Virus record (IMG/VR): IMGVR_UViG_3300021964_011517
Span: 1 to 35,634 of that record
Direction: 5' to 3' (one strand)
Source of the DNA: a virus
DNA length: 35,634 nt
In this document: positions 2,286 to 34,237 of the stretch, one piece after another
Position numbering within the stretch: the stretch's first letter is position 1
How the letters are laid out: every line of letters starts with the position of its first letter
Position numbers and translations under genes: made by a program
Notes under the pieces: model-generated
Databases searched by the model: none
The model's input: only the letters and a program-made list of their open reading frames with translations
What the model was told of the DNA's origin: nothing

Positions 2286-2298
2286 TTTATTATAAATA
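2286..2298 (-). promoter_or_regulatory. Putative late promoter
   Basis: Exact copy of TATTTATAATAAA on the coding strand, 78 bases before the start of the secreted-protein gene. It follows directly on the terminator at 2299-2323. Confidence 0.6.
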
Positions 2299-2323
2299 TA
2301 AAAGGGGAAGTAAAAACTCCCCC
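2299..2323 (-). terminator. Intrinsic terminator after the two-helix membrane protein gene
   Basis: On the minus strand GGGGGAGTTTTTACTTCCCC forms an 8-bp stem with a T4 loop (one G-T pair), followed by TTTTAT. The run of T merges into the next late-promoter motif. Confidence 0.65.
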
Positions 2324-2348
2324 TAATATGTAAAATTAAAATTAAAAT

Positions 2349-2588
2349 TTATACTGTTTTGTGTTTCAGTATATGATATAGAATAAAAGCACCTACTAAT
2401 CCTAATAGTCCTTCATTACTGAGAGATCCTAATATTCCCATAATATTATCTACTACAGAAATTTCAGGCCAGAATGGAATCTTAGCACCCTTGAATAGAA
2501 TCTCAAGTACAACTCCAAGTGCGATAACACTTACACCTACTTCAGTAATTTTGTTAGCCCAAGAGCTAACTTTTTCTAAAATGTTCAT
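2349..2588 (-). CDS. Small two-helix membrane protein (holin-like candidate)
   Basis: 79 residues with two hydrophobic segments: VGVSVIALGVVLEILF (about 17-32) and LLGLVGAFILYHIL (about 60-73). An amphipathic N-terminus and a short basic tail (KHKTV) flank them. Size and layout fit a small holin, and it sits alone between two terminators with its own late-promoter motif, as a lysis gene might. No endolysin lies beside it. The only peptidoglycan-cutting domain in the window is on the tail hub. Holin function is inference; it could be any small inner-membrane protein. Confidence 0.65.
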   Translation of the reverse strand: MNILEKVSSWANKITEVGVSVIALGVVLEILFKGAKIPFWPEISVVDNIMGILGSLSNEGLLGLVGAFILYHILKHKTV

Positions 2589-2621
2589 GTGATTTAAATT
2601 TAGTTAGACATAAGAAAACTG

Positions 2622-2632
2622 TCCGACTCGGA
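2622..2632. promoter_or_regulatory. Short palindrome in the 5' leader of the membrane-protein gene
   Basis: TCCGACTCGGA is a perfect 5-bp inverted repeat around one base. A second palindrome, GCAATTGC, lies beside it at 2635-2642. Both sit between the promoter motif and the start codon. It may be an operator or a small RNA hairpin; the function is unknown. Confidence 0.3.
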
Positions 2633-2641
2633 TTTGCAATT

Positions 2642-2654
2642 GCTATAATAAATA
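2642..2654 (-). promoter_or_regulatory. Putative late promoter (variant)
   Basis: TATTTATTATAGC on the coding strand, three mismatches from the consensus TATTTATAATAAA. It begins a few bases after the T-run of the terminator at 2658-2683 and precedes the 79-codon membrane-protein gene by about 53 bases. Confidence 0.5.
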
Positions 2655-2657
2655 TAC

Positions 2658-2683
2658 AAAAAAAGGGAACAAAAAGTTCCCTT
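2658..2683 (-). terminator. Intrinsic terminator after the nuclease gene
   Basis: On the minus strand AAGGGAAC, loop TTTTT, GTTCCCTT, then continuing T to a run of seven. It closes the replication and nucleotide transcription unit that ends with the 140-codon nuclease gene. Confidence 0.8.
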
Positions 2684-2710
2684 CATATTAAATAATTGAT
2701 TATCAGTCTG

Positions 2711-3133
2711 TTATTTATTTACATTTGACTCAACTCTTACCTCATGCCAGTGTACTTTTCCATTTTTTATAGCATCTCTAATATGTCTTTGATGTTTTAA
2801 AAGTTGACTTTTTCCACTCTTGACCTCTATGATATGAACTGCACATTTTTCTGGATCGTCTGTATCAGTAAAAGATACGTAATCAATTGGCTTACCCATA
2901 AAAATTGCACTCTCCGATGGGACTGGAAATTTGTCCATAAAAGGTACAAAGTTCTCTATTGTCATTCCCCAATTTATAGCTGATGATTTGAATGCTGCAT
3001 CTTTCCTAATCTTAGCTCTCTCTTTATTAAAATCATCTTTAAGAGTTTCAATCTCAATCTTATGTTTCTGGTGTTGAAGGAATATTATAATTGATAAAAC
3101 AATTATACCTAATAACAAAATAAAAGTAATCAT
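2711..3133 (-). CDS. Membrane-anchored endonuclease related to archaeal Holliday junction resolvase
   Basis: 140 residues. Residues 2-20 are a single strongly hydrophobic helix, followed by a charged coiled-coil linker (about 21-47) and a PD-(D/E)xK-type nuclease domain. Visible motifs are GKPIDYVSF (the first catalytic Asp) and HIIEVKSGKSQLLKHQRHIRD (the E-x-K pair and the following basic helix). This is the signature of the family of predicted endonucleases related to archaeal Holliday junction resolvase, many of which carry the same N-terminal membrane helix. It lies 2 bases after the thioredoxin stop, so the two are co-transcribed. The likely role is cutting branched DNA or degrading host DNA; the substrate is not known. 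Confidence 0.8.
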   Translation of the reverse strand: MITFILLLGIIVLSIIIFLQHQKHKIEIETLKDDFNKERAKIRKDAAFKSSAINWGMTIENFVPFMDKFPVPSESAIFMGKPIDYVSFTDTDDPEKCAVHIIEVKSGKSQLLKHQRHIRDAIKNGKVHWHEVRVESNVNK

Positions 3134-3135
3134 AC

Positions 3136-3396: not shown

Positions 3397-3433
3397 AATC
3401 TAAATTTTAAGTTTAACAATAACTCGCAACTAT

Positions 3434-5215
3434 TTATCCATCACAGGCTTGGCACAAAGGATCTACAGCTGCTGATGCAATATCTCCACGAAGTACTGAC
3501 TCTGTTCTCATATAATATAATGTTTTTATTCCTTGTTTCCAAGCTTCCATGGTAACTTGATTTATCCATTTTGGTGTAGCAATCGATGGAAATGCTAAAT
3601 TTAAAGAAACTGACTGATCAATATATTGTTGTCTAACACCAGCTTGTTTTATTAGATCAAGTTGATTTATTTCTTTAAAAGTTTTGAAAACATCTTTTAC
3701 TTTAAAAGTTTTAAAATTATCTCCTTCTGGAACATCTGTGCAATTCAGAAGTTTTCCATCTAAAAAACACCAGGAATCTAATTCTTTTATGTCTTGAATA
3801 GATCCTCCATCTGCTAATATTTTATCCCAAGTATCTTTATTATTAATTCCTGCTTTTCTAAGGACTTTTATAAGTTCAGAATTTTTTCTGATAAAGGTTC
3901 CCTTTGCTGTTTGTTCTGTAAATACATTAGCTGCCCAAGGCTCTATACCAGCTGATACATTTCCACTGAGTTTAGAGTTTGACACAGTGGGTGCAATAGC
4001 TCTTAAATGTGTGTTTCTAAACCCACTATCTTTACACCAAAGAGGCTCACCTAATTCAGTGGCCATATCTCTACTTGCTCTTTCAGATTCAATCTTTAAT
4101 TGTGAGAATATTTTTCTAGTTTCAAATTGAGCTGTCATTCCCTCAAATGGAATACCACTCTGCTGTAGATAAGTGTGCCAACCTAAAACTCCTAATCCTA
4201 ATGCTCTACCTTTTTCTGCTGATCTAACTGAATTTTCAAATCCTCTAAGACCTTTTGCCTTTTGGATAAATTCTGAGAGTACTCCATCTAAAAACCAAGT
4301 GGCTGTATATATTAAATCCGTATTTTTCCACTCATCATATTTAGCTAAGTTTAAAGAAGATAAACAACAAACAAAAGAGTGTGATTCATCAGTATGGAGA
4401 ACAATTTCAGAACAAATATTTGTCATAAAAACTTTAAGACCATTTTGCTTATACATTTCAGGGTTTTGTTTGTTTACATTCCCCTTGAACAGAATATAAG
4501 GTTCTCCTGTAGCTTTTCTTTTTTGAAGTAGTTTACCCCACTTTCTTCTTGCAGTTTCATCACCATCTTGAAGTTTTCTCATAAATTTATCACCAACAAC
4601 TGCACATTGGTGTAAATTGAGTGATTGTCTATTTACATCTCCTTTTGGTTCTCTTATTTCTAACCATTCTTCGAAATCATCATGTTCAATATTTAAATTT
4701 ACAGATGCTGCTCCCCTTCTAACTGATCCTTGATTAGTAGCTAAAATTGTTGAGTCATATATTTTACAAAAAGGCACGACTCCATCTGAAGTTCCATTAC
4801 CAGTAATTTTAGCACCTGCAGGTCTGATTTGATTGATACCAATGCCAACTCCCCCACCATGCTTTGCTAACAACATCATTTCTAGATTCTTAGCACCTAT
4901 GTCATAGATTGAATCTGCTACATCAATACCAAAACATGATATGGGTAAACCTCTATCTGTTCCAGTATTTGAAAGTACAGGGGATGCTAAACATAGCCAA
5001 CCATTCCAAATATAATCGAAAAATTTTGTAGCTAATTGTGGTTTATTTAATCTCTGTGCTACTCTAGATGCTACTCTCCAATATGCATCTTTTGGTTTCT
5101 CTCCTGGTAGGAGGTATCCCCTTGAGATTGTTTTTACATAAATTTCAGTATCTGCCCATAAAGGATAGTCTACTCCTAATTCCCAACCTAATTCTTTTCC
5201 GTAATGTTTGCTCAT
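3434..5215 (-). CDS. nrdA: Class I ribonucleotide reductase, large (alpha) subunit
   Basis: 593 residues. It reduces ribonucleotides to deoxyribonucleotides for phage DNA synthesis. Active-site features are visible: Cys94 in PISCFG, the N-x-C-x-E triad at 266-270 (NICSE), a cysteine pair at 283-284, and the conserved tyrosine pair Y567-Y568 in TLYYMRTES for radical transfer. A C-terminal CQAC (588-591) serves as the redox shuttle. The protein is about 160 residues shorter than E. coli or T4 NrdA. It begins close to the catalytic barrel, so the N-terminal ATP-cone that lets dATP switch the enzyme off is absent. Its start lies 12 bases after nrdB, with AAGG upstream. The stop is followed by thioredoxin, giving an nrdB-nrdA-trx unit. 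Confidence 0.95.
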   Translation of the reverse strand: MSKHYGKELGWELGVDYPLWADTEIYVKTISRGYLLPGEKPKDAYWRVASRVAQRLNKPQLATKFFDYIWNGWLCLASPVLSNTGTDRGLPISCFGIDVADSIYDIGAKNLEMMLLAKHGGGVGIGINQIRPAGAKITGNGTSDGVVPFCKIYDSTILATNQGSVRRGAASVNLNIEHDDFEEWLEIREPKGDVNRQSLNLHQCAVVGDKFMRKLQDGDETARRKWGKLLQKRKATGEPYILFKGNVNKQNPEMYKQNGLKVFMTNICSEIVLHTDESHSFVCCLSSLNLAKYDEWKNTDLIYTATWFLDGVLSEFIQKAKGLRGFENSVRSAEKGRALGLGVLGWHTYLQQSGIPFEGMTAQFETRKIFSQLKIESERASRDMATELGEPLWCKDSGFRNTHLRAIAPTVSNSKLSGNVSAGIEPWAANVFTEQTAKGTFIRKNSELIKVLRKAGINNKDTWDKILADGGSIQDIKELDSWCFLDGKLLNCTDVPEGDNFKTFKVKDVFKTFKEINQLDLIKQAGVRQQYIDQSVSLNLAFPSIATPKWINQVTMEAWKQGIKTLYYMRTESVLRGDIASAAVDPLCQACDG

Positions 5216-5227
5216 AATATAACCTTA

Positions 5228-6223: not shown

Positions 6224-6225
6224 AA

Positions 6226-10563: not shown

Positions 10564-11037
10564 TTACAATTCCAAAATTTTGTGAACTTTTGTGTTCAAC
10601 TGTTTTAAGGAATTGTGTTGTGTGAGGAGAATACAATTTCTATAGTGATTCCACTCAACTTTATAATTTACATCTACTACACCATTGTTTAATCCCTTGA
10701 TCAATTCATTCAAAGCATTAATTGTATATAATGTATTAGATTCTTTCTTTCTATGTAATAATATTGTATTGCTTGGAATTGAGTCAACATTACCATTGTC
10801 TACATTGTAAGTTATGACTAATTCATCAGTATCTAAAATCTCAAGTACGAAAATTTTGTTAAATCTTATATCGTAAGTGGATCTGATATCTGCTACTAGT
10901 TCCTCTAACTCACTTTCTGTAGTAAATGTGGCAAATAGCTTATTATTTATGTCTGGCATGTTATCGATAGTATTAAAATCATAACTACTATGATTATAAA
11001 TATCCAGAACCCTATCTAAAGTCGTAATCATATCCAC
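10564..11037 (-). CDS. Hypothetical protein between polymerase and SSB genes
   Basis: 157 residues, acidic in the N-terminal half, with mixed alpha/beta predicted character and no membrane segment. I do not recognise it. Visible features are a low-complexity LDIYNHSSYDFNTIDN start, a strand pair FVLEILDTDELVITYNV, and a C-terminal helix. A second ATG (MITT) lies two codons in. Its first 26 bases overlap the end of the polymerase gene in another frame. The SSB gene precedes none of its coding, as it follows 30 bases after this stop. Its location suggests a replication accessory role, but nothing in the sequence shows one. Confidence 0.75.
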   Translation of the reverse strand: MDMITTLDRVLDIYNHSSYDFNTIDNMPDINNKLFATFTTESELEELVADIRSTYDIRFNKIFVLEILDTDELVITYNVDNGNVDSIPSNTILLHRKKESNTLYTINALNELIKGLNNGVVDVNYKVEWNHYRNCILLTQHNSLKQLNTKVHKILEL

Positions 11038-12280
11038 TCTTTATCGATGTTTTAAATTTATATTTCTTAAATACATTATTTATTTCTTCTAATAATTTTT
11101 CTTCTCCTGATTTTACATCAAATAGAAAACTATCATAAACAGTCAAAACAATCTGTGTATATCTGTTTTCTAGTACTTTCTGTATGTCAGAAAGAATCTG
11201 AACGTTCAATGAACTCTCAGTTGCTTGTAAAAAATAGTTGAATAATTTCTCTTTACTTATATTTCCTAAGTTGCTTTTGTAGAACCTATAACCACTTATT
11301 GGTTCTTCTAAATAACCTTTTGATTCGAAAGAACTCTTTAATTCATCCTGTTTTTGTAACAACAATTTAAAATACCTCAAATCTTTATATTTTGCAAATA
11401 TTCGACCATAAAATTGCTGAAATGTTATTTCTTTAGCTTTTTCTCTACTGGTTTTGTACATGTTAGCAAAATCTTGGTGAACATCATTACTTTTAAACTC
11501 ATATCCAATCAAGTGTGAAACTATCATAGGATGATAAGCTGTTATGTCAAATTCGACAAAATAATCATTCTTTGGTACAAAACTAGCTCTTTCTCCTGTC
11601 TTTTTGTTTAATGCAGCATAGTTCACCCCTCCAAACTTATTTGAAGGCCTTGTAGTTGTTGTATTTAAGTTATATTGAGTGTATACCCAGGGCTTTGGTC
11701 TATTGTAAAAATGCTTGAAGAACTTATCCACATCGATTCCAATTGAATTTCTCTCGATGTTGTAGTATACCAATGAAACTCTTTTGTTATAGAATTGCTC
11801 ATACTTAGTGTCGTGCTTCTTTATCTTATCTTTGAGTTGTTCATATTTGGCTTCGCAATATTGATAATGCTTGACAATAGGGACAATCTTGTTGACGTTC
11901 TGCTGGTTTGGGTATTTTTTATAAAAAATCTTGTGAGTATCTGTGAGATCCACACTATTGTCTTCAGCAGATAATATAAAATCGTGAAGGTTGTCCAGAT
12001 GAAAATAATGCCAAAAAGATTTCTTATCTGAAGTAAATAGAACTTCAAACTTTTGAAAAATTTCGACAACTTGTTTTTTACTGACATTGAACCCCTCTGT
12101 ATGATTTAAAGGCATCATATAGCCTTTAGTTGCTTCTAGTGGTCTTATATAAATAACACAAGGGTTATTTTCTGCTGGATGTAAGTTATGATCAATACCA
12201 ATAACTTCTACAAATGCTTTCTTATAACCACTTCCACGTAACCACGATAGTTGAAAATCACTTTCTACTAACCAATACAT
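11012..12280 (-). CDS. Short family-A DNA polymerase
   Basis: 422 residues. The polymerase half shows the family-A motifs in order: TTTTRPSNKFGGVN (T-x-R, R211), motif A VEFDITAYHPMI (Asp245), motif B R279-x3-K283-x7-Y291-G292, motif 6 QATESSLN, and motif C VYDSF (Asp383, with Ser where most have Glu). The first about 120 residues have a layout reminiscent of a 3'-5' exonuclease domain (PLEATKGYMMPLNH, then KKSFWHYFHLDNLHDF), but none of the usual exonuclease acids are evident. At 422 residues it is far below the usual size (600-900). Most T4-like phages use the family-B gp43 instead. It may be the replicase, with proofreading elsewhere or absent. Confidence 0.85.
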   Translation of the reverse strand: MYWLVESDFQLSWLRGSGYKKAFVEVIGIDHNLHPAENNPCVIYIRPLEATKGYMMPLNHTEGFNVSKKQVVEIFQKFEVLFTSDKKSFWHYFHLDNLHDFILSAEDNSVDLTDTHKIFYKKYPNQQNVNKIVPIVKHYQYCEAKYEQLKDKIKKHDTKYEQFYNKRVSLVYYNIERNSIGIDVDKFFKHFYNRPKPWVYTQYNLNTTTTRPSNKFGGVNYAALNKKTGERASFVPKNDYFVEFDITAYHPMIVSHLIGYEFKSNDVHQDFANMYKTSREKAKEITFQQFYGRIFAKYKDLRYFKLLLQKQDELKSSFESKGYLEEPISGYRFYKSNLGNISKEKLFNYFLQATESSLNVQILSDIQKVLENRYTQIVLTVYDSFLFDVKSGEEKLLEEINNVFKKYKFKTSIKSGYDYDFR

Positions 12281-18608: not shown

Positions 18609-18836
18609 TTATCCTTCTGTAGCTACAGCAGATGCGTTAGTTGCGTCTTGAAGTCTATTGATATCAGCAACACTAATTGTAGCATCATATGTACCGTTTT
18701 TAAAAGTATCATTGATGTACAAAGTAAACTCTCTTTTTAAAGGAGCTGTTGGTGCTGAATCATCCTTAGATACTCCTGTACTGTTTGGAGATCCTTGACC
18801 TGCGTAGCGATCTAAAATGTTTGTATAATTTGCCAT
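18609..18836 (-). CDS. Small hypothetical virion-type protein
   Basis: 75 residues with an Asn/Ser/Thr/Ala-rich composition and a short central strand region, KREFTLYINDTFKNGTY. There are no membrane segments and no cysteine. It follows a perfect late-promoter motif and stands between the tape measure and the large tube-cap-like gene, so a structural or assembly role in the tail is likely. I recognise no family. Confidence 0.7.
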   Translation of the reverse strand: MANYTNILDRYAGQGSPNSTGVSKDDSAPTAPLKREFTLYINDTFKNGTYDATISVADINRLQDATNASAVATEG

Positions 18837-18853: not shown

Positions 18854-18866
18854 TTTATTATAAATA
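18854..18866 (-). promoter_or_regulatory. Putative late promoter
   Basis: Exact TATTTATAATAAA on the coding strand, 17 bases before the start of the 75-codon gene, in the 48-base gap after the tape measure gene. Confidence 0.6.
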
Positions 18867-21731: not shown

Positions 21732-21744
21732 TTTAGTATAAATA
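21732..21744 (-). promoter_or_regulatory. Putative late promoter (variant)
   Basis: TATTTATACTAAA on the coding strand, one base from the consensus, 9 bases before the GTG start of the tape measure gene. Confidence 0.5.
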
Positions 21745-21757: not shown

Positions 21758-22093
21758 CTATTTGTATGAAGTTTTACCCTTATATTGTTTTGATACTTCT
21801 GCGAATTGTTCTTTATTTATTTTTCCTGAAGGGTCTATTAGAGATTTCTTATCTCCTTTAAGAGCAGATTTCTCAGCTTCAGATTTTTTATCGTAGAATT
21901 GCTTGATTTCGTGAAAAGTGTATTTACGAAGCCAAAGAGGCATATTATAAATTGTCTCCCAATCATATCCCCCTTGTCCATGAAATACTATCTCATGGAT
22001 CTCTTTAAATATGTTTAATCTAAACTGTTTTGCAGATTTAGATGTCAGGCCAAAAAAAGCTAAGATTAATCGGGATAGTGGCCTCCTCTCCAC
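21758..22093 (-). CDS. Hub assembly / tail chaperone-like protein, gp51-like candidate
   Basis: 111 residues from a GTG at 22093. The conserved-looking core is FRLNIFKEIHEIVFHGQGGYDWETIYNMP followed by LWLRKYTFHEIKQFY. That matches a small protein often found after gp26 in marine T4-like phages; by position I compare it to gp51, the hub assembly catalyst of T4. The first 18 codons overlap the last 19 codons of the gp26-like gene in another frame. No ATG is available near the conserved core, so it is translated either from the GTG or by a frameshift on the T7 run at 22052-22058. The C-terminus is Lys-rich. Confidence 0.7.
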   Translation of the reverse strand: MERRPLSRLILAFFGLTSKSAKQFRLNIFKEIHEIVFHGQGGYDWETIYNMPLWLRKYTFHEIKQFYDKKSEAEKSALKGDKKSLIDPSGKINKEQFAEVSKQYKGKTSYK

Positions 22094-22766
22094 TATCCGA
22101 CCTAAAAGTAAGGTCTACGTCAGGTTGAACTTGTTTGATATACTCTCTTAAAGCTCTTGAATCACGAGCTAATAAATAGTTATCTACGAAGTCTCTGACT
22201 GCTTTTTGATCATTATCTCCTTCTACAGAAGTAATAATATATTTTAGTCTTGTAGTTAGTTCTGGTGCTGTACCATTTCCAGTCCTTTTAAGGCCCTCTA
22301 TTTCACGATTTAACTTCTTCTCAGTATGACCATCCAAAATTCTAAAAGTGATCTTATTTTGGCTGTGAGGTAGCTCAAATTCGAATTCATTTTTTCCTTT
22401 AGTAACTTTACTCTCATCGAAGAATTTATTTTCAAGATCTGCTAGATTCACTGATTGCTCTTTGCCCATAAAAGTAAATTTGTAGTCACTTCCATATCCT
22501 AATACTCTAGCAGCTATAAGTGCAGCATTCTTGTCTCCTACAATCAGATCATCAACTTTTACTCCCTCTGTTACAATTAGAGATTCTAAAAGTTTGTCTA
22601 ATACTGTTCCTTTCTGAATATAGTTTTGATTTGTAAGGATATCCTCTTCCTTAGCTGTCATGTACTTTATTTGTATAACTCCTTTTGAAAGAACATTATC
22701 TTCAGGATAAAGTAATCCTTTTGAAGGTAGCACAACCTCTTCAGTTGGCATTTTTATTTCACTCAT
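22038..22766 (-). CDS. Baseplate hub subunit, gp26-like
   Basis: 242 residues. It begins with VVLPSKGLLYPEDN and continues with KYMTAKEEDILTNQNYI, a pattern familiar from gp26-type baseplate proteins of T4-like phages. It ends in the family-typical IPINLSFFWPDI. Cysteines that form a zinc-ribbon-like C-terminus in some relatives are missing here (DLTFRSDSGEEATI). The gene has its own late-promoter variant and follows a terminator, so it heads a tail transcription unit with the gp51-like gene and the tape measure. The start has an AAATTATG context. Confidence 0.8.
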   Translation of the reverse strand: MSEIKMPTEEVVLPSKGLLYPEDNVLSKGVIQIKYMTAKEEDILTNQNYIQKGTVLDKLLESLIVTEGVKVDDLIVGDKNAALIAARVLGYGSDYKFTFMGKEQSVNLADLENKFFDESKVTKGKNEFEFELPHSQNKITFRILDGHTEKKLNREIEGLKRTGNGTAPELTTRLKYIITSVEGDNDQKAVRDFVDNYLLARDSRALREYIKQVQPDVDLTFRSDSGEEATIPINLSFFWPDI

Positions 22767-22784: not shown

Positions 22785-22797
22785 TCTCTTATAAATA
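22785..22797 (-). promoter_or_regulatory. Putative late promoter (variant)
   Basis: TATTTATAAGAGA on the coding strand, 18 bases before the gp26-like start. It lies downstream of the terminator at 22821-22848. Confidence 0.5.
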
Positions 22798-22820: not shown

Positions 22821-22848
22821 AAAAAAACCCGACAGAAAGTCGGGTTTT
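22821..22848 (-). terminator. Intrinsic terminator after the tail tube gene
   Basis: On the minus strand CCCGACTTTCTGTCGGG with a 6-bp stem, followed by seven T. The opposite strand also has a T-rich flank, so it may work in both directions. Confidence 0.9.
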
Positions 22849-22870: not shown

Positions 22871-23359
22871 TTAGAAGTTTAATACACAGTAATCAGGCTG
22901 TACTGTCATTGTAATTTCTTGTGCTGCATTCTCAGTATCATAGTTGTATGCACCGAATGCTGCAGAAGTAATAAGGGCTCCTTTAATTACCCACTGTGAA
23001 ACGATATCTCCTACAGGACCTAACACATCAAATGTTAAATCTTTTTTGTAGAAATCAGAGTATCCATCTCTACCAGTAACTGATTCATGATGTAATCTTA
23101 CCCATTCCATTACTGCTTGTGCACCTGATGGTGTGATAGGATCAAAAAGTGTGAAATCTATTGTACCCCAGGTTGTTTTCCCTTTTACAAATCTTTGAAC
23201 GTTGATATGATTTAAGGTTACTGTTCCTTGTGTTAGTGATACAGCACTTACTCCTTTCACCATATAAGCAGGGAAACCATCTATTAGCATTCTGAACCTA
23301 TTTGCCTGTTTCGGTTCGAACTCGGTGAAAAAGATATCATTTGATTCTACTATTGCCAT
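22871..23359 (-). CDS. Tail tube protein, gp19-like
   Basis: 162 residues, the usual size for the gp19 tube subunit (163 in T4). Typical segments are ANRFRMLIDGFPAYMVKGV near 18-36, KTTWGTIDFTLFDPI, AVMEWVRLHHESVTGR, and the C-terminal strand QEITMTVQPDYCVLNF. Hexamers stack to make the rigid inner tube through which DNA passes. It follows the sheath gene, as in T4, and has its own late promoter before it and a strong terminator after it. This would allow the high output needed for a major structural subunit. Confidence 0.93.
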   Translation of the reverse strand: MAIVESNDIFFTEFEPKQANRFRMLIDGFPAYMVKGVSAVSLTQGTVTLNHINVQRFVKGKTTWGTIDFTLFDPITPSGAQAVMEWVRLHHESVTGRDGYSDFYKKDLTFDVLGPVGDIVSQWVIKGALITSAAFGAYNYDTENAAQEITMTVQPDYCVLNF

Positions 23360-23369: not shown

Positions 23370-23382
23370 TTTATTATAAATA
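23370..23382 (-). promoter_or_regulatory. Putative late promoter
   Basis: Exact TATTTATAATAAA on the coding strand, 10 bases before the tail tube start, in the gap after the sheath gene. Confidence 0.6.
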
Positions 23383-23399: not shown

Positions 23400-25124
23400 T
23401 TAGGCTGGGAATGTTGCTCCAGTTGGTAAGACATTAAAGTCTAAGATTATATATTCAGCTGTTTTAGTTGGTTGTAGATAAATTTGTCCTACAAGCTCAT
23501 TTCTGTCTACGACATCAGGTCCATTGTTAGACTCATCCATTACAACTTTGAAAGCATACAATCCTTGTCTCTGTCTTACAGACTCTAAGTATGGATTTAC
23601 TTGAGTAAGGAAGTTGTTTCTTGTTGCAGCTGAATTTTGCTCAAATACTAATGAATCAGAAATTTGAGAAATATAATTTTTAAGAGAGATTAACAATCTA
23701 CGTACATTTACTCTATCAAGTGCTGTAGCAGATTTTTGTAGAGTTTTTTGACCAAATACTACTACTCCTGCTTGTGGGAATGTAGCAATTGGGTTTACGT
23801 TAGCTGTGTAGAGTGTATCTCTTGTAGCTGATGCTAATTTTTTCTCTGCTCTAATTACTGTTCCTAATCCTCCTCTGTTAAGACCTGCAGGTGCAAACCA
23901 TGGTTCAGAAGATTTATCTGTAAATGCCATTACCCCAGGAATAACAGTTGAAGCAGGTACCCAAACAGTCTGTCCTGTATCAGGATCAATTGTTTGTACC
24001 CATGGCCAGTAAGTAGCAGCATAGCTTGTATTAAACGTTGCAGCTTGTGTAGTTACAGTGGCTGTTTCAGCACCCCAGTTTACAAGATCAACAATTGCAA
24101 TATTGTCTCCTCTATTGATAGCTACACTAGAAAGTGAAGTTACTTGAGAAGAAGCATTTTGTGTTGTAAGTCCAGGTGCAGAGATTACATTAAATCTATA
24201 GTCATCTTTATTGTTTAATAGATTAAGTGCAATGGTATAATCTGTTCCAGTAAGTCCTTGAATATTTCCAGTGGTAACATTATCATAGAATTGTGCTGGT
24301 GATCCTGTTGCTTGAGAGTATAGATCTCCAGTTGCTCCTGAGAAGGACCCTGATCCTGCTGTTGGTATAGAAGCAGTGTATTGAGATTTTACATTCCCAT
24401 CATTATCAAAATAGTCAGAAGTCTTTTGGTATACAGCAGAAACTCTAACATAGCTTGACTTGTTAGTGTAAGACCCTTGATTTTGGATATAATATTGTCC
24501 TCCATCACTTTGAACTGTTTCAGTAGAGTTACCAATAACTTTCTCAATATAGTTATCAGCTTTAGGATCTAATGAAAGGTTTTGCCAAGTTTCAAGGACA
24601 GTTTTGTCATTTGTTGTATCATCACCACGTCTAATCAATAGGCTGAATACCCCTGATTCAGTATTTGGATTAGCAATTTCCCAACGAATGTTATCAATTG
24701 ATCCAGATGCAAGTGCTCCCCCACTTGACAGAGATCCTGAACTATTCATGATAGTTCCTTCAGACAACGTTGTAAGTTGAAAAGTATTTGATGCTGTTGT
24801 AATATTGTTATGTACTGTTGTCGAAGTCGCTGGGGTGAATGATCCTGAAGTAACACGAGTTACTAATAAGGAATCCCCTCCATTTTGGAAGTAGTTAAAT
24901 GCTCCAATAGAAGTGAAGTAAGAAAATTGTTGACTCCCACTCTCAAAAGCAGCTCCAAAGATTGCTTTATATTGAGAATAAGAAGTTACAAGTCTTGGTT
25001 TCTCTACTGGCCCTTTAGGAGTTGGGCCAACTATTGCAGCTCCAGCTTGTATAGGTTGTGCAGTTACAAACGAAGAATCGTTTTCTCTTGCTAGTACACC
25101 AGGTGATAATAATGTCTCTGCCAT
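23400..25124 (-). CDS. Contractile tail sheath protein, gp18-like
   Basis: 574 residues. The N-terminus ETLLSPGVLARENDSS and then AGAAIVGPTPKGPVEKPRLVTSY are typical of sheath proteins. The C-terminal domain is the best conserved part (GVVVFGQKTL, RVNVRRLLISLKNYI, then FLTQVNPYLESVRQRQGLYAFKVVMDESNN, and IYLQPTKTAEYIILDFNVLPTGATF). The middle is Ser/Thr-rich and variable, probably the outward-facing protrusion. The subunits form the contracting outer tube. A late-promoter motif lies 24 bases upstream. The gene is followed by its own gap with a second promoter for the tube. Confidence 0.95.
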   Translation of the reverse strand: MAETLLSPGVLARENDSSFVTAQPIQAGAAIVGPTPKGPVEKPRLVTSYSQYKAIFGAAFESGSQQFSYFTSIGAFNYFQNGGDSLLVTRVTSGSFTPATSTTVHNNITTASNTFQLTTLSEGTIMNSSGSLSSGGALASGSIDNIRWEIANPNTESGVFSLLIRRGDDTTNDKTVLETWQNLSLDPKADNYIEKVIGNSTETVQSDGGQYYIQNQGSYTNKSSYVRVSAVYQKTSDYFDNDGNVKSQYTASIPTAGSGSFSGATGDLYSQATGSPAQFYDNVTTGNIQGLTGTDYTIALNLLNNKDDYRFNVISAPGLTTQNASSQVTSLSSVAINRGDNIAIVDLVNWGAETATVTTQAATFNTSYAATYWPWVQTIDPDTGQTVWVPASTVIPGVMAFTDKSSEPWFAPAGLNRGGLGTVIRAEKKLASATRDTLYTANVNPIATFPQAGVVVFGQKTLQKSATALDRVNVRRLLISLKNYISQISDSLVFEQNSAATRNNFLTQVNPYLESVRQRQGLYAFKVVMDESNNGPDVVDRNELVGQIYLQPTKTAEYIILDFNVLPTGATFPA

Positions 25125-25148: not shown

Positions 25149-25161
25149 TTTATTATAAATA
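25149..25161 (-). promoter_or_regulatory. Putative late promoter
   Basis: Exact TATTTATAATAAA on the coding strand, 24 bases before the sheath start. Confidence 0.6.
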
Positions 25162-25181: not shown

Positions 25182-25433
25182 TTATTTCTGTGGAGTTATT
25201 TCTCCAGTTTCTATGTTTATGATCCCATCTCCATACTTTTTAGTCAATTCAGAAGCAAAATCGGATCTCATTTTCTCAAGTTCTTTTCTCGTTTGTTTAA
25301 TTTGGTCTTTTTGCTCATTTAAAATTTCTTTTTGGTAAGCTATTTGACCCAAAGAAACTATAATTTCATTCTCTTTTTCTTGAAACTTTTTTAACCTTTG
25401 CAACTCCTCTTCAGTCAAAACTTTTTTTTCCAT
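25182..25433 (-). CDS. Small coiled-coil hypothetical protein
   Basis: 83 residues, nearly all helical and charged, with heptad-like Leu/Ile spacing from ELQRLKKFQEKENEI to KELEKMRSDFASEL. It ends in the motif KYGDGIINIETGEITP. Similar small proteins with this closing motif occur next to tail and neck genes in other marine phages, but I know no function. It has its own late-promoter motif, and another follows for the sheath. It might be an assembly chaperone; that is speculation. Confidence 0.75.
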   Translation of the reverse strand: MEKKVLTEEELQRLKKFQEKENEIIVSLGQIAYQKEILNEQKDQIKQTRKELEKMRSDFASELTKKYGDGIINIETGEITPQK

Positions 25434-25451: not shown

Positions 25452-25464
25452 TTTATTATAAATA
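25452..25464 (-). promoter_or_regulatory. Putative late promoter
   Basis: Exact TATTTATAATAAA on the coding strand, 18 bases before the 83-codon coiled-coil gene. Confidence 0.6.
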
Positions 25465-28211: not shown

Positions 28212-28221
28212 AATTATTTAT

Positions 28222-28647
28222 TTATGTTGTAGCAATAAAATATTCAATCTTAGCTGAACTACCTGATGGTTTTAATTTTATTGATGCTATATCATCATAT
28301 GCATAACTAGAAGATAAACTTCCAGTGTATTCACTTGTAGATAGTGTAAATATACTTCCACCATTTACTTTAAAATGAGCTGATTCAGTTGATGATGATA
28401 CATGGACATCTACAAAACTTGAAGTAGTAACATTACTTATTCTAGCATACTTGATAGAACTTGTTATAAAAGTCCCTGCTCCTACAGTATTACTTAAATT
28501 AAATATAGCTGCTTCAGTATCTGCAGGTATAGTCATGGTTCTATGATCAACAGAATTTATTCCTGTTATATCATGTTGATAGTAAGTGCTTCTATCATTA
28601 CCATCTAAAGTAATGTCTTCTTGCACTACAAGTTTCAAAGTTGCCAT
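28222..28647 (-). CDS. Beta-rich hypothetical virion-type protein
   Basis: 141 residues, rich in Ser, Thr and short alternating strands (TLKLVVQEDITLDGND, FVDVHVSSSTESAHFKV). It ends with KLKPSGSSAKIEYFIATT. There is no signal peptide, membrane segment or cysteine. The composition resembles small decoration or fibre-associated proteins. It is preceded by an exact late-promoter motif 9 bases from the start and heads a unit with the Cys-rich microprotein, gp13, gp14 and gp15. A head or neck surface role is plausible but not shown. Confidence 0.75.
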   Translation of the reverse strand: MATLKLVVQEDITLDGNDRSTYYQHDITGINSVDHRTMTIPADTEAAIFNLSNTVGAGTFITSSIKYARISNVTTSSFVDVHVSSSTESAHFKVNGGSIFTLSTSEYTGSLSSSYAYDDIASIKLKPSGSSAKIEYFIATT

Positions 28648-28656
28648 TATCTACAT

Positions 28657-28669
28657 TTTATTATAAATA
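28657..28669 (-). promoter_or_regulatory. Putative late promoter
   Basis: Exact TATTTATAATAAA on the coding strand, 9 bases before the 141-codon gene. The distance to the start is so short that the mRNA would have almost no leader. Confidence 0.6.
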
Positions 28670-28671
28670 TC

Positions 28672-29406
28672 TTATCTTTTAGACGAACCACTGAAATCTG
28701 AGAATGTTATGTGATTCAGTTGCTCTTCATAATACATTAAGATATCTTCTACTATTGGATCTCTATGATTTGTTGTTAGAGTTAAGGCTTCTAGATTTTT
28801 TATTCTTCTAGAGGCTTTATACAAAAATTTAAATCCACTATCAGCTTTTCTTCTCAAATCTATCTGTTTATCATCACCACAAATAATCATCTTAGATCTT
28901 AATCCCAATCTAGATACTAACATTTCCATTTGCTCGTGGGTAACATTCTGTGCTTCATCTACAATCACTATAGAATCAAGAAAAGTTCTCCCCCTCATAA
29001 AAGATACTGGTACTATTTCTATACTGCCATCAGTTAGATATTTTTCCATTTTATCTTTTCCATAAAGAGTATAAAAGTTCTGATATATAGGCTGTACCCA
29101 AGGATCCATTTTTTCCCTCATATCTCCTGGTAGGAATCCTATATCTTCTTTTGATACAGTTGGTCTTGTAATTATTATGTTTTGATATTCTCTCCTGAAT
29201 AATCCATCTAAAGCTATATTACAAGCTAATAGAGTTTTTCCTGATCCAGCTGCTCCTGCTAATAAAGTTATGGTATTTCGGAGTATTATATCCTTAGCTT
29301 CTTTTTGCTCTTCGTTTAATTGAATCTGAAACTTGATAGGGTTTTTACGAGTTCTTTTCCCTTTGTACACATCATCTGTGTGATGTTTTGAGGTAGGCAT
29401 AAACAT
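28672..29406 (-). CDS. phoH: PhoH-like ATPase
   Basis: 244 residues. Walker A is GAAGSGKT (near 52-59) and Walker B is SIVIVDEAQN. ITRPTVSKEDIGFLPGDMREKMDPW and SFMRGRTFLDS are the signature stretches of PhoH, with ICGDDKQIDLRRKADSG as the sensor part. PhoH is a predicted RNA/DNA-binding ATPase common in marine phages. It is often called an auxiliary gene of phosphate stress, but its activity in phages is not established. Here it lies directly after the major capsid terminator and has its own late-type promoter, so it is probably made late, with the virion proteins. Confidence 0.92.
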   Translation of the reverse strand: MFMPTSKHHTDDVYKGKRTRKNPIKFQIQLNEEQKEAKDIILRNTITLLAGAAGSGKTLLACNIALDGLFRREYQNIIITRPTVSKEDIGFLPGDMREKMDPWVQPIYQNFYTLYGKDKMEKYLTDGSIEIVPVSFMRGRTFLDSIVIVDEAQNVTHEQMEMLVSRLGLRSKMIICGDDKQIDLRRKADSGFKFLYKASRRIKNLEALTLTTNHRDPIVEDILMYYEEQLNHITFSDFSGSSKR

Positions 29407-29410
29407 TTGG

Positions 29411-29423
29411 TTTATAATAAATA
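29411..29423 (-). promoter_or_regulatory. Putative late promoter (variant)
   Basis: TATTTATTATAAA on the coding strand, one base from the consensus. It lies 4 bases before the phoH start and 9 bases after the T-run of the capsid terminator. Confidence 0.5.
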
Positions 29424-29432
29424 TTTTCCAAT

Positions 29433-29458
29433 AAAAAAACCCCTCACAAGGAGGGGTT
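29433..29458 (-). terminator. Intrinsic terminator after the major capsid gene
   Basis: On the minus strand CCCCTC, loop of five bases, GAGGGG, then seven T. It starts about 23 bases after the capsid stop codon. Confidence 0.9.
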
Positions 29459-29481
29459 ATTTTCTAATCTAAATTTTTAGA

Positions 29482-31110
29482 TTATAGAGTATTTAAACCA
29501 GCTACTTCAATTGTACCATAAAATTCTGGTCTGACTATCTTCTTAGCGTATCTAGTCAAGAGACCTTTTCTTGGTGTAAAGGTGTCTGGATCGTACACTA
29601 GAGGAGTCATAATTAATGGAATATAAGGAGCAAATACAGCACCACTTTCCAAGAACTGAGTACCTCTATATCCTAAAAGGATTTGGTTTTCAGTCATGTA
29701 TGGGTTTTTGTATACTTTATATCTTCCATTCAACTGTCCTACTTTTTGCACACCGAATGCATAAGTATTTTTAGCTGTATCTCCATCGCTATCAGCAGCA
29801 AATCCAGGAATAGACTCAAGGATTGTACCTACAGTCGGAGAACATACTAGGAAGTTTGCACCACCTCTAAGGGTTTTTTGGTGAATGATGTTAGAAAGCT
29901 TTTGGATTTTAGTTCCAAGTGTTTGGAACCACTGTCCTTGGCTGTTATAATATCCACCGTCAGCTACACCTTTTCCATCAAATGCAGTACCTGCGTTGTT
30001 GATGAATTGGTTAGAAACTGCAGACCATTTTTCTGTACCTGCACCTGCAGAAGTAAGAAGCATATCTAAGATTTCAAGATCGATCTCTAATGAGATGTGC
30101 TCTGAAAGGATAGAAGTCAATTCTGCTTCAGCATCAAGTGCATGGTAAGCATTCAAGTCTTGTGCAAACTCAGGAGTCCATACAGCTTTTAGTTTTCTTG
30201 TTTTAGCAACAATAGCAGATGATTTCATCTGTACGTTGATTTCAGGAATGCTGATTGGGTTGTTATTGTTGTTCAATGCAGTGTTTTGATCTTCGAAATC
30301 ACCTCTGTACTGATCAGTTGGTTGTAATTGATACTCAACTGCGAATGTTTGTCCATCACCTACGTCAGATCCAGAAACGATAAATGTTACGTTAGTAGCA
30401 TCTACAGTTGTGAATGCAGGAAGGTTTTCAGCAGCAGTAAGAGCTGAACCTGTGATTACAAATCCACGTACTCCTTCTACATCTAGGTTAGCTAATTGAG
30501 CTCTTGTTACAGCAACTTTAGTATATCCACTAGCAGCTGCAGAAGCAGAGTAAGTAGAATCAAAGTTTAAATCTGCCCAAGTTGCAGATGAAGTTACACC
30601 TGTTACAGCAGATGAAGTGTTGTTGATAGAATATGTAAATCTACCAGCTCCATAGAATCCACCTGTGTTAGTGTTACCAAAAGGAGTGTTTCCTCCTGTA
30701 TCACCATATACAGAGCTTCCAGCTGTGTAAGGCTGCTTGCTAGTTCCATATTGGAAATCTAGATAAAATACAAGCCCAGAGGGCAAGTTCATTGGCTGTA
30801 CAGAAACAAATTCTTTAGCAGCAATCTGTCCGAATACTTTACGTACTAGGGGAAGTGCTACTCCAGCCCATTGCTCACCTACACCAGCAGTAAATGTACC
30901 TTGTGAAGATGTACCCCCACCAGTTTGAGAGCTCTCTACTACAAGCTGCTTAGCTTGGTTTTCTAACAACATAGACATGTTGCTTTTGTGGGTATTATCA
31001 AGACCTTCTAAGAGTCCTGTTTTTTCCCACTTTTGTGCTAGTCTCTTAGCATCACTCATTTGTGACTGGTAAGGGTTAGCACTTTCTAAAAGTGTGTTTA
31101 TATTACTCAT
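29482..31110 (-). CDS. Major capsid protein, gp23-like
   Basis: 542 residues, close to T4 gp23 (521). Diagnostic segments: NTLLESANPYQSQ at the N-terminus, LPLVRKVFGQIAAKEFVSVQPMNLPSG, RKLKAVWTPEFAQDLNAYHALDAEAEL, LEIDLEILDML, and TRYAKKIVRPEFYGTI near the end. A likely maturation cut by the prohead protease is after Glu59 (LVVE, then SSQTGG), which would remove the propeptide as in T4 (cut after Glu65). It lies 13 bases after the scaffold gene and is followed by a strong terminator, with no separate promoter motif directly before it. Confidence 0.96.
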   Translation of the reverse strand: MSNINTLLESANPYQSQMSDAKRLAQKWEKTGLLEGLDNTHKSNMSMLLENQAKQLVVESSQTGGGTSSQGTFTAGVGEQWAGVALPLVRKVFGQIAAKEFVSVQPMNLPSGLVFYLDFQYGTSKQPYTAGSSVYGDTGGNTPFGNTNTGGFYGAGRFTYSINNTSSAVTGVTSSATWADLNFDSTYSASAAASGYTKVAVTRAQLANLDVEGVRGFVITGSALTAAENLPAFTTVDATNVTFIVSGSDVGDGQTFAVEYQLQPTDQYRGDFEDQNTALNNNNNPISIPEINVQMKSSAIVAKTRKLKAVWTPEFAQDLNAYHALDAEAELTSILSEHISLEIDLEILDMLLTSAGAGTEKWSAVSNQFINNAGTAFDGKGVADGGYYNSQGQWFQTLGTKIQKLSNIIHQKTLRGGANFLVCSPTVGTILESIPGFAADSDGDTAKNTYAFGVQKVGQLNGRYKVYKNPYMTENQILLGYRGTQFLESGAVFAPYIPLIMTPLVYDPDTFTPRKGLLTRYAKKIVRPEFYGTIEVAGLNTL

Positions 31111-31123
31111 TTTAAAATTAAAT

Positions 31124-32383
31124 TTAGACGATACCTGCTAGTTTTTGGAATCTAGCTACCATACCATCCGATTCTACAATTTGATTTTTGTTTTCTTTGA
31201 TAACTTGAGTTGGTTTAGATGCTGAAGCTTTAATCTCAGAAACCATAGATCTTCTTTTAAAAGTAGGTCTAGATTTGATTCCTTCACTTAAAGTTTCATA
31301 AACCAACTTAGCTTCTTTAGTTGAATTTGCTTTGTCAAAAGACTCAAGCACTTTTACCTTTTGAGACTCAGAAAGATTCTTGTCTTTAAAAAGCTTGTTT
31401 GAATAAAGAAGTTTAGCATTTAGTAAGTTTACTTCTTGAAGATCCTTTTTAAGAGCTTCGATTTCAGCTAATGCTTCTTCCATCTCTTTTTTGTGTTTCT
31501 TCATTCCATATCCTTCTTCTACTTCATCCTCTTCTTTCATGTAATCAATCTCACCTTCCTCTTCAGCAGTTTCTTTTCTTTTAGGTCCTTTGCCATGATG
31601 ACCTTTTTTCTTCATGTCATCTTTGTGCTCGTCACCTTTTTTACCGCCTCTTTCTTCAGTGATCTCTTCTTCGATTTCTTCAGATTCAGTTACTTCCTCT
31701 GATTCTTCCATCATGTCAGATTCTGAATCTATAGTAATTTCTACTTCTTCACTATCTTCCATTTCCCCTTCTTCTTCGCCTTCTTCGGCTTCAAAGTCAG
31801 GTCCTGGCTCTAGTTCTCCAGCAGCTACCATGTCTTTCATTACATCTTCAATGAAGTCTTTTAAATCTTCCTCAGACATTTCGTCTAAGTCGAGTTCCTC
31901 TTCTTCTACTTCTTCAGATTCCTCTTCTTCCTCTTCTTGCTCCATCTTAGTGTCGTCTTCTTCGTAGTGGTCCTCTTCTTCAATAGTCTCTTCAGACTCT
32001 TCTAAAGATTCTTCCTCTTCTTTAAGACGCATCTCTTCAGTTTCTTTCTCAACAGCATCATCTCCTTTCATGCCTTTTCGCATTACAGGGTCTGACATCT
32101 CATCAAGTTCTTCTGATTCTTCGATTTCATCAAGTTTAGAAAGTAAGCTCTCTAAAGAAATATTGTCAGATTGCTCTTCCATTTTTTCTTCTTTGTGGTC
32201 TTTTTCCTTCATTTCTTTAATTTTAGTTTCTTCGTTTTCCAGTTCTTGAACTTTCTTGGAAAACAATTCTTTGATATGAGGGGCAAAAGACTCTTCCAAA
32301 GCAGCTTTTGCATTTGCTAATGCAGCTTCTTTAATAGAAGTAGCTTCAGCAATAGCTTCGTTTAGCAAAGTTCTTGTTGCCAT
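31124..32383 (-). CDS. Prohead core scaffold protein, gp22-like
   Basis: 419 residues against 269 in T4. The two ends fit gp22: an N-terminal helix (LLNEAIAEATSIKEAALANAKAALEE) and a C-terminal helical part with NAKLLYSNKLFKDKNLSESQKVKVLESFDKA. The insertion between them (about 65-290) is extremely rich in Glu, Asp, Ser, Lys and Met, with runs such as EQEEEEEESEEVEEEE. A basic patch GGKKGDEHKDDMKKKGHHGKGPKRKE lies at about 247-272. It forms the inner core on which the capsid assembles and is destroyed by gp21. It has the longest untranslated leader of the window, with hairpins and a promoter variant. Confidence 0.85.
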   Translation of the reverse strand: MATRTLLNEAIAEATSIKEAALANAKAALEESFAPHIKELFSKKVQELENEETKIKEMKEKDHKEEKMEEQSDNISLESLLSKLDEIEESEELDEMSDPVMRKGMKGDDAVEKETEEMRLKEEEESLEESEETIEEEDHYEEDDTKMEQEEEEEESEEVEEEELDLDEMSEEDLKDFIEDVMKDMVAAGELEPGPDFEAEEGEEEGEMEDSEEVEITIDSESDMMEESEEVTESEEIEEEITEERGGKKGDEHKDDMKKKGHHGKGPKRKETAEEEGEIDYMKEEDEVEEGYGMKKHKKEMEEALAEIEALKKDLQEVNLLNAKLLYSNKLFKDKNLSESQKVKVLESFDKANSTKEAKLVYETLSEGIKSRPTFKRRSMVSEIKASASKPTQVIKENKNQIVESDGMVARFQKLAGIV

Positions 32384-32409
32384 AATCCTAAAAATTGTTT
32401 TTTGGAAAT

Positions 32410-32473
32410 ACGCTTATTGAATAATAGCGTAATGTGTAATTATTATTTGTCAGATAGCATATATAAATGCTAT
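32410..32473 (-). promoter_or_regulatory. Structured 5' leader of the scaffold gene
   Basis: Two inverted repeats lie between the promoter motif and the start of the scaffold gene. One is ATAGCAT with ATGCTAT (32454-32460 and 32467-32473), a 7-bp stem with a 6-base loop. The other is ACGCT with AGCGT (32410-32414 and 32426-32430). They could affect translation or mRNA stability; no known family is recognised. Confidence 0.4.
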
Positions 32474-32476
32474 ATT

Positions 32477-32489
32477 CTAATTATAAATA
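32477..32489 (-). promoter_or_regulatory. Putative late promoter (variant)
   Basis: TATTTATAATTAG on the coding strand, two bases from the consensus, 93 bases upstream of the scaffold start. It would drive scaffold and capsid together. Confidence 0.5.
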
Positions 32490-32510
32490 TATCTAAATTT
32501 ATAAAAAGTC

Positions 32511-33122
32511 TTAAAAAAGTGGACACGAGCCTTTTGAACAAAGGATTTCTTTAATTATCTCGTCTACTTTTCTGTATTTATCCAAATTTTGGAACGTTTG
32601 TTTATTTTCATTTAGCTGCACTGGAGACATGAAACTTCCTGGGTTTGAGGGTGTTGATACAAAATCCCAGCATATTAAATTGAAATCATCTTGTACTTCA
32701 TATACACCTCCTATTTGTTTTACACTTCCTTCTCCTCTTGAGGAAACTCCTACGACTATACCACTATCTATAAGAGATTTTAGAATATTTCCTGCTGGTG
32801 TTGGTAATATTTCTATTCGACCCATTACGTGATCTCCATCCCACCAAGTAGACTTTATACAGTGTGAGACATTTTGTAAATTTATTATTCCTGTTTCTGG
32901 ATGGTCTAATTCGCCTATAGCACGATTTTCTTTTATAAGAGTTTGATAGTTATCTATTTCCCTTTTCCATAAATCCTCTGGATATTCTCTTTGATTGCCA
33001 TTTTTCTGATTTACAGTTGTAAGAATTCCTTCTACCTGCATATTTCCAGATGGAGACTTCGATTCAACCAAATTTTTAGAAGGTTGAAACAACGAAGTTT
33101 CAATAAGTACTTGCTTTGTCAT
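32511..33122 (-). CDS. Prohead maturation protease, gp21-like
   Basis: 203 residues, close to T4 gp21 (212). The serine protease signatures are His74 in AIGELDHPE and the serine pair 127-128 in VVGVSSRGEG. The region GNMQVEGILTTVNQKNGNQREYP is typical of this family. It cleaves the scaffold and the capsid propeptide inside the prohead and then degrades itself. The C-terminus has a Cys-x4-Cys-PLF end not needed for catalysis. It starts 2 bases after the preceding helical core gene. Confidence 0.9.
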   Translation of the reverse strand: MTKQVLIETSLFQPSKNLVESKSPSGNMQVEGILTTVNQKNGNQREYPEDLWKREIDNYQTLIKENRAIGELDHPETGIINLQNVSHCIKSTWWDGDHVMGRIEILPTPAGNILKSLIDSGIVVGVSSRGEGSVKQIGGVYEVQDDFNLICWDFVSTPSNPGSFMSPVQLNENKQTFQNLDKYRKVDEIIKEILCSKGSCPLF

Positions 33123-33124
33123 TC

Positions 33125-34219
33125 TTATTTTTTTGAAGCTCTTTCGTGCATTTTTTGGTACTTAGCTTTCTTTCTCTCTAGAAGCTTTATTTCATTTTTA
33201 AGTTCTTTGAGTTTTTTTGGATCCATCAATTCTTTCATTGACTCATTCTCATCGATCATTGAAATTTGACTCTCTCTCATTTCAATCTCTTCTTGAATTG
33301 CATCCATTTTAGCTTCAAGTGCTAAAGCAGTTCCTAATTTATCTATTTCTGACATTCTTTTATGAATAGATACTTTTTTAGCTTTAGTCTTAGGTTTTTC
33401 TTGAATAACTTCATCCTCTTCCATGGGATTCATATCAACTACCATATTAGTCACAGACTCATCTGATGGTAGTGTCTCATCCTCTTCGTTGATATCTTCT
33501 TGTTGTACTCCCCATTCTTTGTCAACTTCAGCCATTATATCTTTAATAATCTCATTAGATTTAGAGGCAAAGCTGTCTTTATGGCCTGATGTTACAATAC
33601 CTGCACCCATCAAACTTTCTTTAACAACATCTTTTAATTTGTCAGAGTAGCCAGAAGATTTGTGATCTCCTGATACCTCTTGATTTTTAGATTCTTGATA
33701 TCCTAAACCTTCTACTCCAAACTGACCTTCTTTTACGTAATGTAAAGGATCTTTTGCTAGATTTTTAGTTACTAGCTCTTTAGCTTCTTCCAAGGACATG
33801 TCAGGATTGTTTTTAAGCTCTGTATAGAGACCTTTAAGGATTTCCTCACCTACTTGATTGTCAGGATTTTTTTTGTCCTTATAATCGAAGTTATGGTCTT
33901 CTATCTCTTCTACTGAAGAATCTACTTTTTTAGACTCTGCAGGAATCTTCTCATCATGCTCTTTTGATGCTTCGGCTAAGAATGTTGAAAATTTAGTTTC
34001 CCAACTTTCTTTCTCACGAGGCTCTAGAATGTTGATAGGTTGTAAATCAACATAATTTTCGCTAATTATATTTTTTTGCTTTAAAATATTTACAGTCTCA
34101 TCAAAGCTATTGATGTTAGAAATAATATTAGAATGATTTCTCTTTGCTTCCTTGAGAAATACCCCTTTATTTCCTTTGCCTTCTTTTATTAGATTAAACT
34201 GTTCCTGTAAAGTCTTCAT
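33125..34219 (-). CDS. Helical, acidic hypothetical head protein
   Basis: 364 residues, highly charged and mostly helical with a coiled coil at the C-terminus (KLKELKNEIKLLERKKAKYQKMHERA). There is no signal peptide or membrane segment. A middle GQFGVEGLGYQESKNQE stretch and an acidic EEDETLPSDES region are notable. It sits directly before gp21 in the place where T4 has small core proteins (gp67, gp68), so an internal core role is likely but unproven. A late-promoter motif is 5 bases upstream of its ATG, so the mRNA may be nearly leaderless. Confidence 0.75.
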   Translation of the reverse strand: MKTLQEQFNLIKEGKGNKGVFLKEAKRNHSNIISNINSFDETVNILKQKNIISENYVDLQPINILEPREKESWETKFSTFLAEASKEHDEKIPAESKKVDSSVEEIEDHNFDYKDKKNPDNQVGEEILKGLYTELKNNPDMSLEEAKELVTKNLAKDPLHYVKEGQFGVEGLGYQESKNQEVSGDHKSSGYSDKLKDVVKESLMGAGIVTSGHKDSFASKSNEIIKDIMAEVDKEWGVQQEDINEEDETLPSDESVTNMVVDMNPMEEDEVIQEKPKTKAKKVSIHKRMSEIDKLGTALALEAKMDAIQEEIEMRESQISMIDENESMKELMDPKKLKELKNEIKLLERKKAKYQKMHERASKK

Positions 34220-34224
34220 ATTTT

Positions 34225-34237
34225 TTTATTATAAATA
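34225..34237 (-). promoter_or_regulatory. Putative late promoter
   Basis: Exact TATTTATAATAAA on the coding strand, immediately after the stop codon of the frameshifted extension at 34238. It lies 5 bases from the start of the 364-codon gene. Confidence 0.6.

Follow-up and report, generated by a model that had tools for sequence, protein, structure and literature searches.

The virus record IMGVR_UViG_3300021964_011517, analysed over its whole length (35,634 nt, hereafter the window), is a 35.6-kb stretch in which every gene is encoded on the - strand and a 13-bp motif, TATTTATAATAAA, recurs upstream of virion genes. PHROGs matches in the window included gp23, the gp21 protease, PhoH, neck, tail sheath, tail tube and baseplate proteins. 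The virion genes are followed by a replication block with PHROGs matches to a UvsX-like recombinase, a gp32-like single-stranded DNA-binding protein (SSB), DnaB, an exonuclease, NrdA/NrdB and thioredoxin. The best matches to the major capsid protein (gp23) were from the phages immuto (NC_055915; 57% identity over 99% of the length), Mel-JY01 (a Microcystis phage, 51%), LR756508 (an uncultured phage, 50%) and RM378 (a Rhodothermus phage, NC_004735, 34%), with alignments over 97-99% of the length, while gp23 of T4 and of the cyanophage type matched at ~34-38% identity over half the length. By these best gp23 matches the window is a fragment of a Far-T4 phage with Flavobacterium phage immuto as the nearest isolate, and its module and gene order is the same as that of immuto. 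Far-T4 phages occur commonly in freshwater and marine habitats, and their hosts are presumed to be Bacteroidota. A link of the group to Bacteroidota hosts has been described (PMC7198788).

A strand-biased motif upstream of virion genes

An earlier reading of the window (the original prediction) had listed twelve coding-strand copies of the motif as a late-promoter set, all in intergenic gaps near start codons. All twelve were present on the - strand (seven exact, two with one mismatch, two with two and one with three), located 4-93 nt 5' of a start codon. When up to one mismatch was allowed, nine copies of TATTTATAATAAA were found on the coding strand, all nine intergenic, and none on the opposite strand. 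Intergenic DNA makes up 3.9% of the window, and in Markov-simulated intergenic DNA the mean was 0.004 exact copies and 0.13 copies with one mismatch. With three mismatches allowed, the strands were equal (51 versus 48), so the sites at 2642, 32477 and 22785 gain no individual support from the count and rest on their position. Four sites (2286, 2642, 22785 and 29411) are located directly 3' of intrinsic-terminator-like hairpins, the placement expected where a new unit of transcription starts.

Tail tube homologues from 80 other contigs, picked by protein and not by motif, carried the motif 8-23 nt before the ATG in 80/80 cases (50 exact, 18 with one mismatch and 12 with two), and the opposite strand of these upstream regions mostly showed 3-4 mismatches. 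In a de-duplicated set of 242 sequences, the core TATTTATAA was located within 100 nt upstream of the start of all 101 tail tube homologues, 81/92 sheath, 52/68 neck and 9/10 tape measure homologues, and 19/19 and 49/90 homologues of the genes at 28222 and 25182, respectively. The core preceded only 2/371 replication-block homologues. These counts confirm the claim that the motif marks late units only, save for one exact core TATTTATAA within the replication block of the window (10990-11002), which is inside gene 10564-11037, ~31 nt before an internal ATG (10959), and is not conserved in relatives. Altogether the motif was found at the same homologous virion genes in ~100 independent contigs.

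A matrix scan of the long relatives, as proposed with the original prediction, gave a strong strand and intergenic bias. Sense to antisense copies in eight records of the group were 22:0, 11:3, 15:1, 21:2, 20:1, 16:3, 13:1 and 13:1, while T4 gave 2:1, Mel-JY01 1:2, RM378 1:2 and LR756508 no copies. In immuto, 15 of the 17 sense cores were intergenic versus ~6% of the genome. We therefore consider, at a probability of roughly 85%, that this phage group uses the motif as its late promoter and that the phage's own gp55-like late sigma is most likely the specificity factor. This reading is supported by the strand and intergenic bias, the conservation at virion genes only, and the presence of a gp55-like sigma in relatives longer than 98 kb.

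Table 1 Candidate late promoter elements and terminator-like hairpins in the window
Feature	Positions	Strand	Context
Late promoter element, exact TATTTATAATAAA	34225..34237	-	5 nt before gene 33125-34219 (head region)
Weak copy TATTTATAATTAG, 2 mismatches, core exact	32477..32489	-	93 nt before gp22/scaffold-like gene 31124-32383; 2/31 relatives, not conserved
Intrinsic-terminator-like hairpin + T run	29438..29458	-	End of gp23 unit
Late promoter element TATTTATTATAAA, 1 mismatch	29411..29423	-	4 nt before phoH (28672-29406); directly after terminator
Late promoter element, exact	28657..28669	-	9 nt before gene 28222-28647; core in 19/19 homologues
Late promoter element, exact	25452..25464	-	18 nt before gene 25182-25433; 49/90 homologues
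Late promoter element, exact	25149..25161	-	24 nt before tail sheath gene 23400-25124; 81/92 homologues
Late promoter element, exact	23370..23382	-	10 nt before tail tube gene 22871-23359; 101/101 homologues
Intrinsic-terminator-like hairpin + T run	22824..22848	-	End of tail tube unit
Weaker copy TATTTATAAGAGA, 2 mismatches	22785..22797	-	18 nt before baseplate hub gene 22038-22766
Late promoter element TATTTATACTAAA, 1 mismatch	21732..21744	-	9 nt before 945-aa tape-measure-like gene 18885-21722; core in 9/10 homologues
Late promoter element, exact	18854..18866	-	17 nt before gene 18609-18836
Intrinsic-terminator-like hairpin + T run	2662..2684	-	End of replication/nuclease block
Weakest copy TATTTATTATAGC, 3 mismatches, uncertain	2642..2654	-	53 nt before gene 2349-2588; after terminator
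Intrinsic-terminator-like hairpin + T run	2303..2324	-	
Late promoter element, exact	2286..2298	-	77 nt before gene 1714-2208

Baseplate hub homologues carried the motif within two mismatches in 39/95 cases in sense and 18 in antisense. The exact copy at 18854 has an exact counterpart in immuto at 153828, at the matching place between the tape measure and the next gene. The tape-measure-like protein itself (18885-21722) contains a short tandem repeat, DGSFRELGSTAVSKAMT, in ~4 copies. Within the replication block, the region 11012-12280 adjoining the SSB encodes just a 422-aa polymerase piece. A 1.3-kb family-A polymerase piece occupies the same place in immuto, which has a longer family-A polymerase gene elsewhere, and the pieces in the two phages suggest a split or duplicated polymerase.

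Form of the element and its sister motifs

A family-balanced profile, made without conditioning on the core, read A (0.92), then TATTTATAA with every base at 0.94 or above, then T/C and AAA. The element is thus A-TATTTATAA-Y-AAA, with TATTTATAA preceded by A as the invariant core and position 10 as the most variable of the motif (T 0.61, C 0.28, A 0.10). No conserved -35 was present in the profile (at most ~0.25 bit per position from -45 to -21), and the flank from ~-20 to -3 was AT-rich. Neither TAnnTTTG at -7 nor TTTG/TTG at -33, the Bacteroidota sigma-A type, was seen in the profile at the motif. Two options had been left by the original prediction, namely a recognition sequence that differs from that of T4, which is favoured here, and a TATAAT-like -10, which is disfavoured because its last T, the would-be T-7, is the least conserved position of the motif and no -35 was seen. 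Pairs resembling a TATAAT -10 with a sigma-70 -35 occurred at chance level in the window (66 versus 64.9 and 77 versus 84.5 expected).

The T4 late octamer TATAAATA had been described as occurring only as the reverse complement of the motif. This was not borne out, as five coding-strand copies are present in the window, four inside genes and one at 34246 adjoining a motif. In the same orientation, TATAAATA of T4 and TATTTATA here agree at 6/8 positions and only the two central bases differ; since both octamers have the form TAT-NN-ATA, an exchange of the central bases resembles a reversal. Bases -12, -9 and -8 occupy pockets of gp55 in the T4 structure (PMC7892883). The alignment suggests that A-12 and A-8 of these pocket bases are kept here and -9 is changed.

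Related elements were carried by Mel-JY01 and RM378. Mel-JY01, recorded from a cyanobacterial host, encodes the orthologous sigma described below and has no TATTTATAAYAAA set. ATATTTATRTATG-like elements were located before its sheath-, tube- and head-region genes; a Shine-Dalgarno sequence (GGAG) separates motif and ATG. In RM378, TATTTAAA(ATAAA) preceded 13 of the 80 starts tested in the sense orientation and 2 in antisense, frequently in the form TATTTAAAATAAA directly adjoining the ATG (e.g. genes 3445-4395 and 29547-29996), an arrangement that would give nearly leaderless late mRNAs. A late promoter of the TATTTA type thus appears to be common to the clade, together with an orthologous late sigma; this promoter differs from TATAAATA of T4 and from the late promoter NATAAATA of cyanophage S-PM2 (PMC2984593).

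A gp55-like protein in the long relatives

The original prediction had pointed to the rest of the genome as the place to look for a gp55-like sigma. One long relative gave a weak Sigma70_r2 signal, which pointed to a protein of 234 aa. G008 and immuto encode orthologues of it, and members of this family (232-235 aa) were present in 7/7 relatives longer than 98 kb (G004, G008, G016-G019 and immuto). The immuto orthologue is gp118 (KNV73_gp118, NC_055915 78174-78872), annotated as hypothetical. Orthologues were also found in Mel-JY01 (38.6% identity) and LR756508, and RM378p020 (NC_004735 17032-17826) was a weaker match in the genome search (E 2e-6). RM378p144, annotated as a sigma factor, is a different protein and not the orthologue (1.8 bits). 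No orthologue was detected in T4 at the sensitivity of this search, or in the 77-kb fragment G003.

Direct hidden Markov model signals were weak for phrog_234 (E 0.05-0.5) and sub-threshold for Pfam Sigma70_r2, which was absent in immuto, and the identification therefore relied on profile-profile comparison and a structure model. The sigma family aligned with the gp55 family in hhalign (E 7.9e-6) over 104 collinear columns at ~15% column identity, and a gp55 profile search of 350 immuto and G004 proteins ranked immuto gp118 first. In the reverse test, the late-sigma profile against single T4 open reading frames placed gp55 only sixth by score, so a comparison with single sequences lacks the power needed in this direction. 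A sequence search of the family against the PDB gave no match. The AlphaFold2 model (mean predicted local distance difference test score, pLDDT, 80) matched sigma-2 of S. aureus SigB with Z 10.1 and a root-mean-square deviation (rmsd) of 2.4 A over 90 residues, and sigma factors made up almost all of the matches listed. The T4 gp55 chains 7d7c/7d7d are in the PDB and were not among the fold-search matches listed. The ~235-aa protein was thus identified by profile comparison and the AlphaFold model as a previously unrecognised, very divergent gp55 with a sigma domain 2 and a C-terminal helical domain. By our own reading of the alignment, the gp55 pocket residues F86 and Y97 are kept as F84 and Y95, while H95 and T99 are replaced by Y93 and G97.

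The C-terminal helical domain is conserved, spans ~90 residues and was modelled with a pLDDT of 87. In T4, gp55 consists of sigma-2 alone and the role of sigma-4 falls to gp33 (PMC2988020); a 2010 review of T4 late transcription considered why there is no fused late sigma and stated that none had been found (PMC2988020). No gp33 was identified in the Far-T4 group, where it was not searched for. Whole-model alignments span sigma-2 and sigma-4 of bacterial sigmas, but with a large rmsd, and the C-terminal domain alone matched sigma-4 chains with Z 4.5-4.7, no better than unrelated folds. We offer only tentatively, and with some doubt, the idea that the Far-T4 late sigma is a natural one-piece factor, with a gp55-type sigma-2 joined to a C-terminal flap-binding (sigma-4/gp33-like) domain, which reads its own promoter class TATTTATAA. 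Sigma and promoter together also open to test whether a late sigma factor can be a single fused protein.

Weighing of the late promoter and comparison with known systems

Under the late-promoter reading, the promoter would consist of one -10-like element, A-TATTTATAA-Y-AAA, which lies on the non-template strand and has no accompanying -35 box. The 232-235 aa gp55-like sigma (immuto gp118) would recognise it in the opened non-template strand, and host RNA polymerase would begin transcription a few bases ahead of each unit of virion genes, giving a short leader. A gp45-like clamp may activate late transcription as in T4. The genes would be expressed late, and the complete genome from which the window derives would be predicted to encode the sigma as well. 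The element, its strand, position, gene class and conservation, and the presence and sigma-2 nature of the protein in relatives, are what the sequences themselves show.

Several observations weigh against this reading. The link between sigma and promoter was made by co-occurrence and homology only, and the window itself is without a sigma gene. The weakest sites of the window fall within chance, and for gp23, gp21 and several head genes, each lacking its own motif, transcription has to run in from upstream. A gp45-like clamp was found in G004, G008 and G018, and a gp44 loader in G004, G008, G016, G018 and Mel-JY01; neither was detectable in immuto, though sigma and motif are present there, so clamp coupling may not be universal.

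The main rival arises from the early genes of immuto. Most small early open reading frames in its small-ORF region (~66-76 kb) are headed by a long element, GTTG-N~20-TATATTTAGGTATCAATAATTAAAAC (also written GTTG-N~20-TATNTTTAGGTATCAATAATTAAAAC; TATNTTTAG sites), the tail of which, TATCAATAATTAA, was found 15 times in sense and never in antisense. This element resembles the -33/-7 promoter of Bacteroidota, for which the -7 consensus is TAnnTTTG (PMC7366714), and shares ATATTTA with the late motif. The motif could therefore be a promoter for the host primary sigma (sigma-A of Bacteroidota, with TAnnTTTG at -7), possibly helped by a phage activator, and the gp55-like protein would then have a different role. 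We regard this as unlikely, since the late motif has no -33 element or TTTG and diverges completely after ATATTTA, and since the two motifs share no gap (0/24 immuto early gaps hold TATTTATAA); as read from these sequences, the early promoters are a class separate from the late one. In addition, the orthologous gp55-like sigma occurs alongside the motif in every long relative, and a sister motif accompanies it even in Mel-JY01 with its cyanobacterial host.

That most copies are less than 25 nt from the start codon and end in AAA, in genomes with few evident Shine-Dalgarno sequences, would also suit a translation-initiation element, i.e. an A-rich, Shine-Dalgarno-free start context. This is very improbable, because the distance to the ATG is variable both in the window and in the tube homologues and does not suggest a fixed-distance ribosome signal, because replication genes are also translated and almost always lack the motif, and because the motif comes after terminators and, in Mel-JY01, its sister is upstream of the GGAG. 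A dimeric regulator binding the near-palindromic part TTTATNATAAA as an operator is more improbable still. TTTATAATAAA is palindromic about its centre and several sites match the opposite strand at 2-3 mismatches, but the palindromy is not conserved (C in 28% at position 10, a variable right arm, and TATTTAAAATAAA in RM378) and the orientation relative to the gene is almost invariant.

Core T4 transcription-regulation genes were not detected in Far-T4 phages by Roux et al. 2015 (PMC4360716). No report of the 13-mer or of late promoters in Flavobacterium phages, nor of a late promoter or late sigma for the Far-T4 group, was found in the open-access literature searched. Both halves of a late-transcription system would now be in hand for these phages, whose gene-expression programme was previously unknown: a promoter readable from sequence, and a sigma gene that had gone unnoticed under the label 'hypothetical protein' in cultured immuto, with a weaker match in RM378. 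Promoter and sigma co-varying across the clade (TATTTATAAYAAA, ATATTTATRTATG and TATTTAAAATAAA versus TATAAATA of T4) would provide a test case for specificity change in sigma domain 2.

Compared with known systems, the element shares with Bacteroidota sigma-A promoters an AT-rich -7/-10 element and differs in having no -33, no TTTG and a separate gene class. The resemblance to T4 late promoters, which in the Straboviridae are read by gp55, gp33 and gp45 and also are without a -35 (PMC2988020), is a single -10-like AT-rich octamer with an AT-rich flank just before virion genes in a T4-type genome. Relatives encode a gp55-type sigma-2 protein, and several of them a gp45-type clamp and a gp44 loader. 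The differences are that the octamer TATAAATA is not the core here, the core being TATTTATAA with central TT instead of AA, that the conserved part runs on into A-Y-AAA, and that T4 gp55 is without the ~90-residue C-terminal domain of the Far-T4 sigma.

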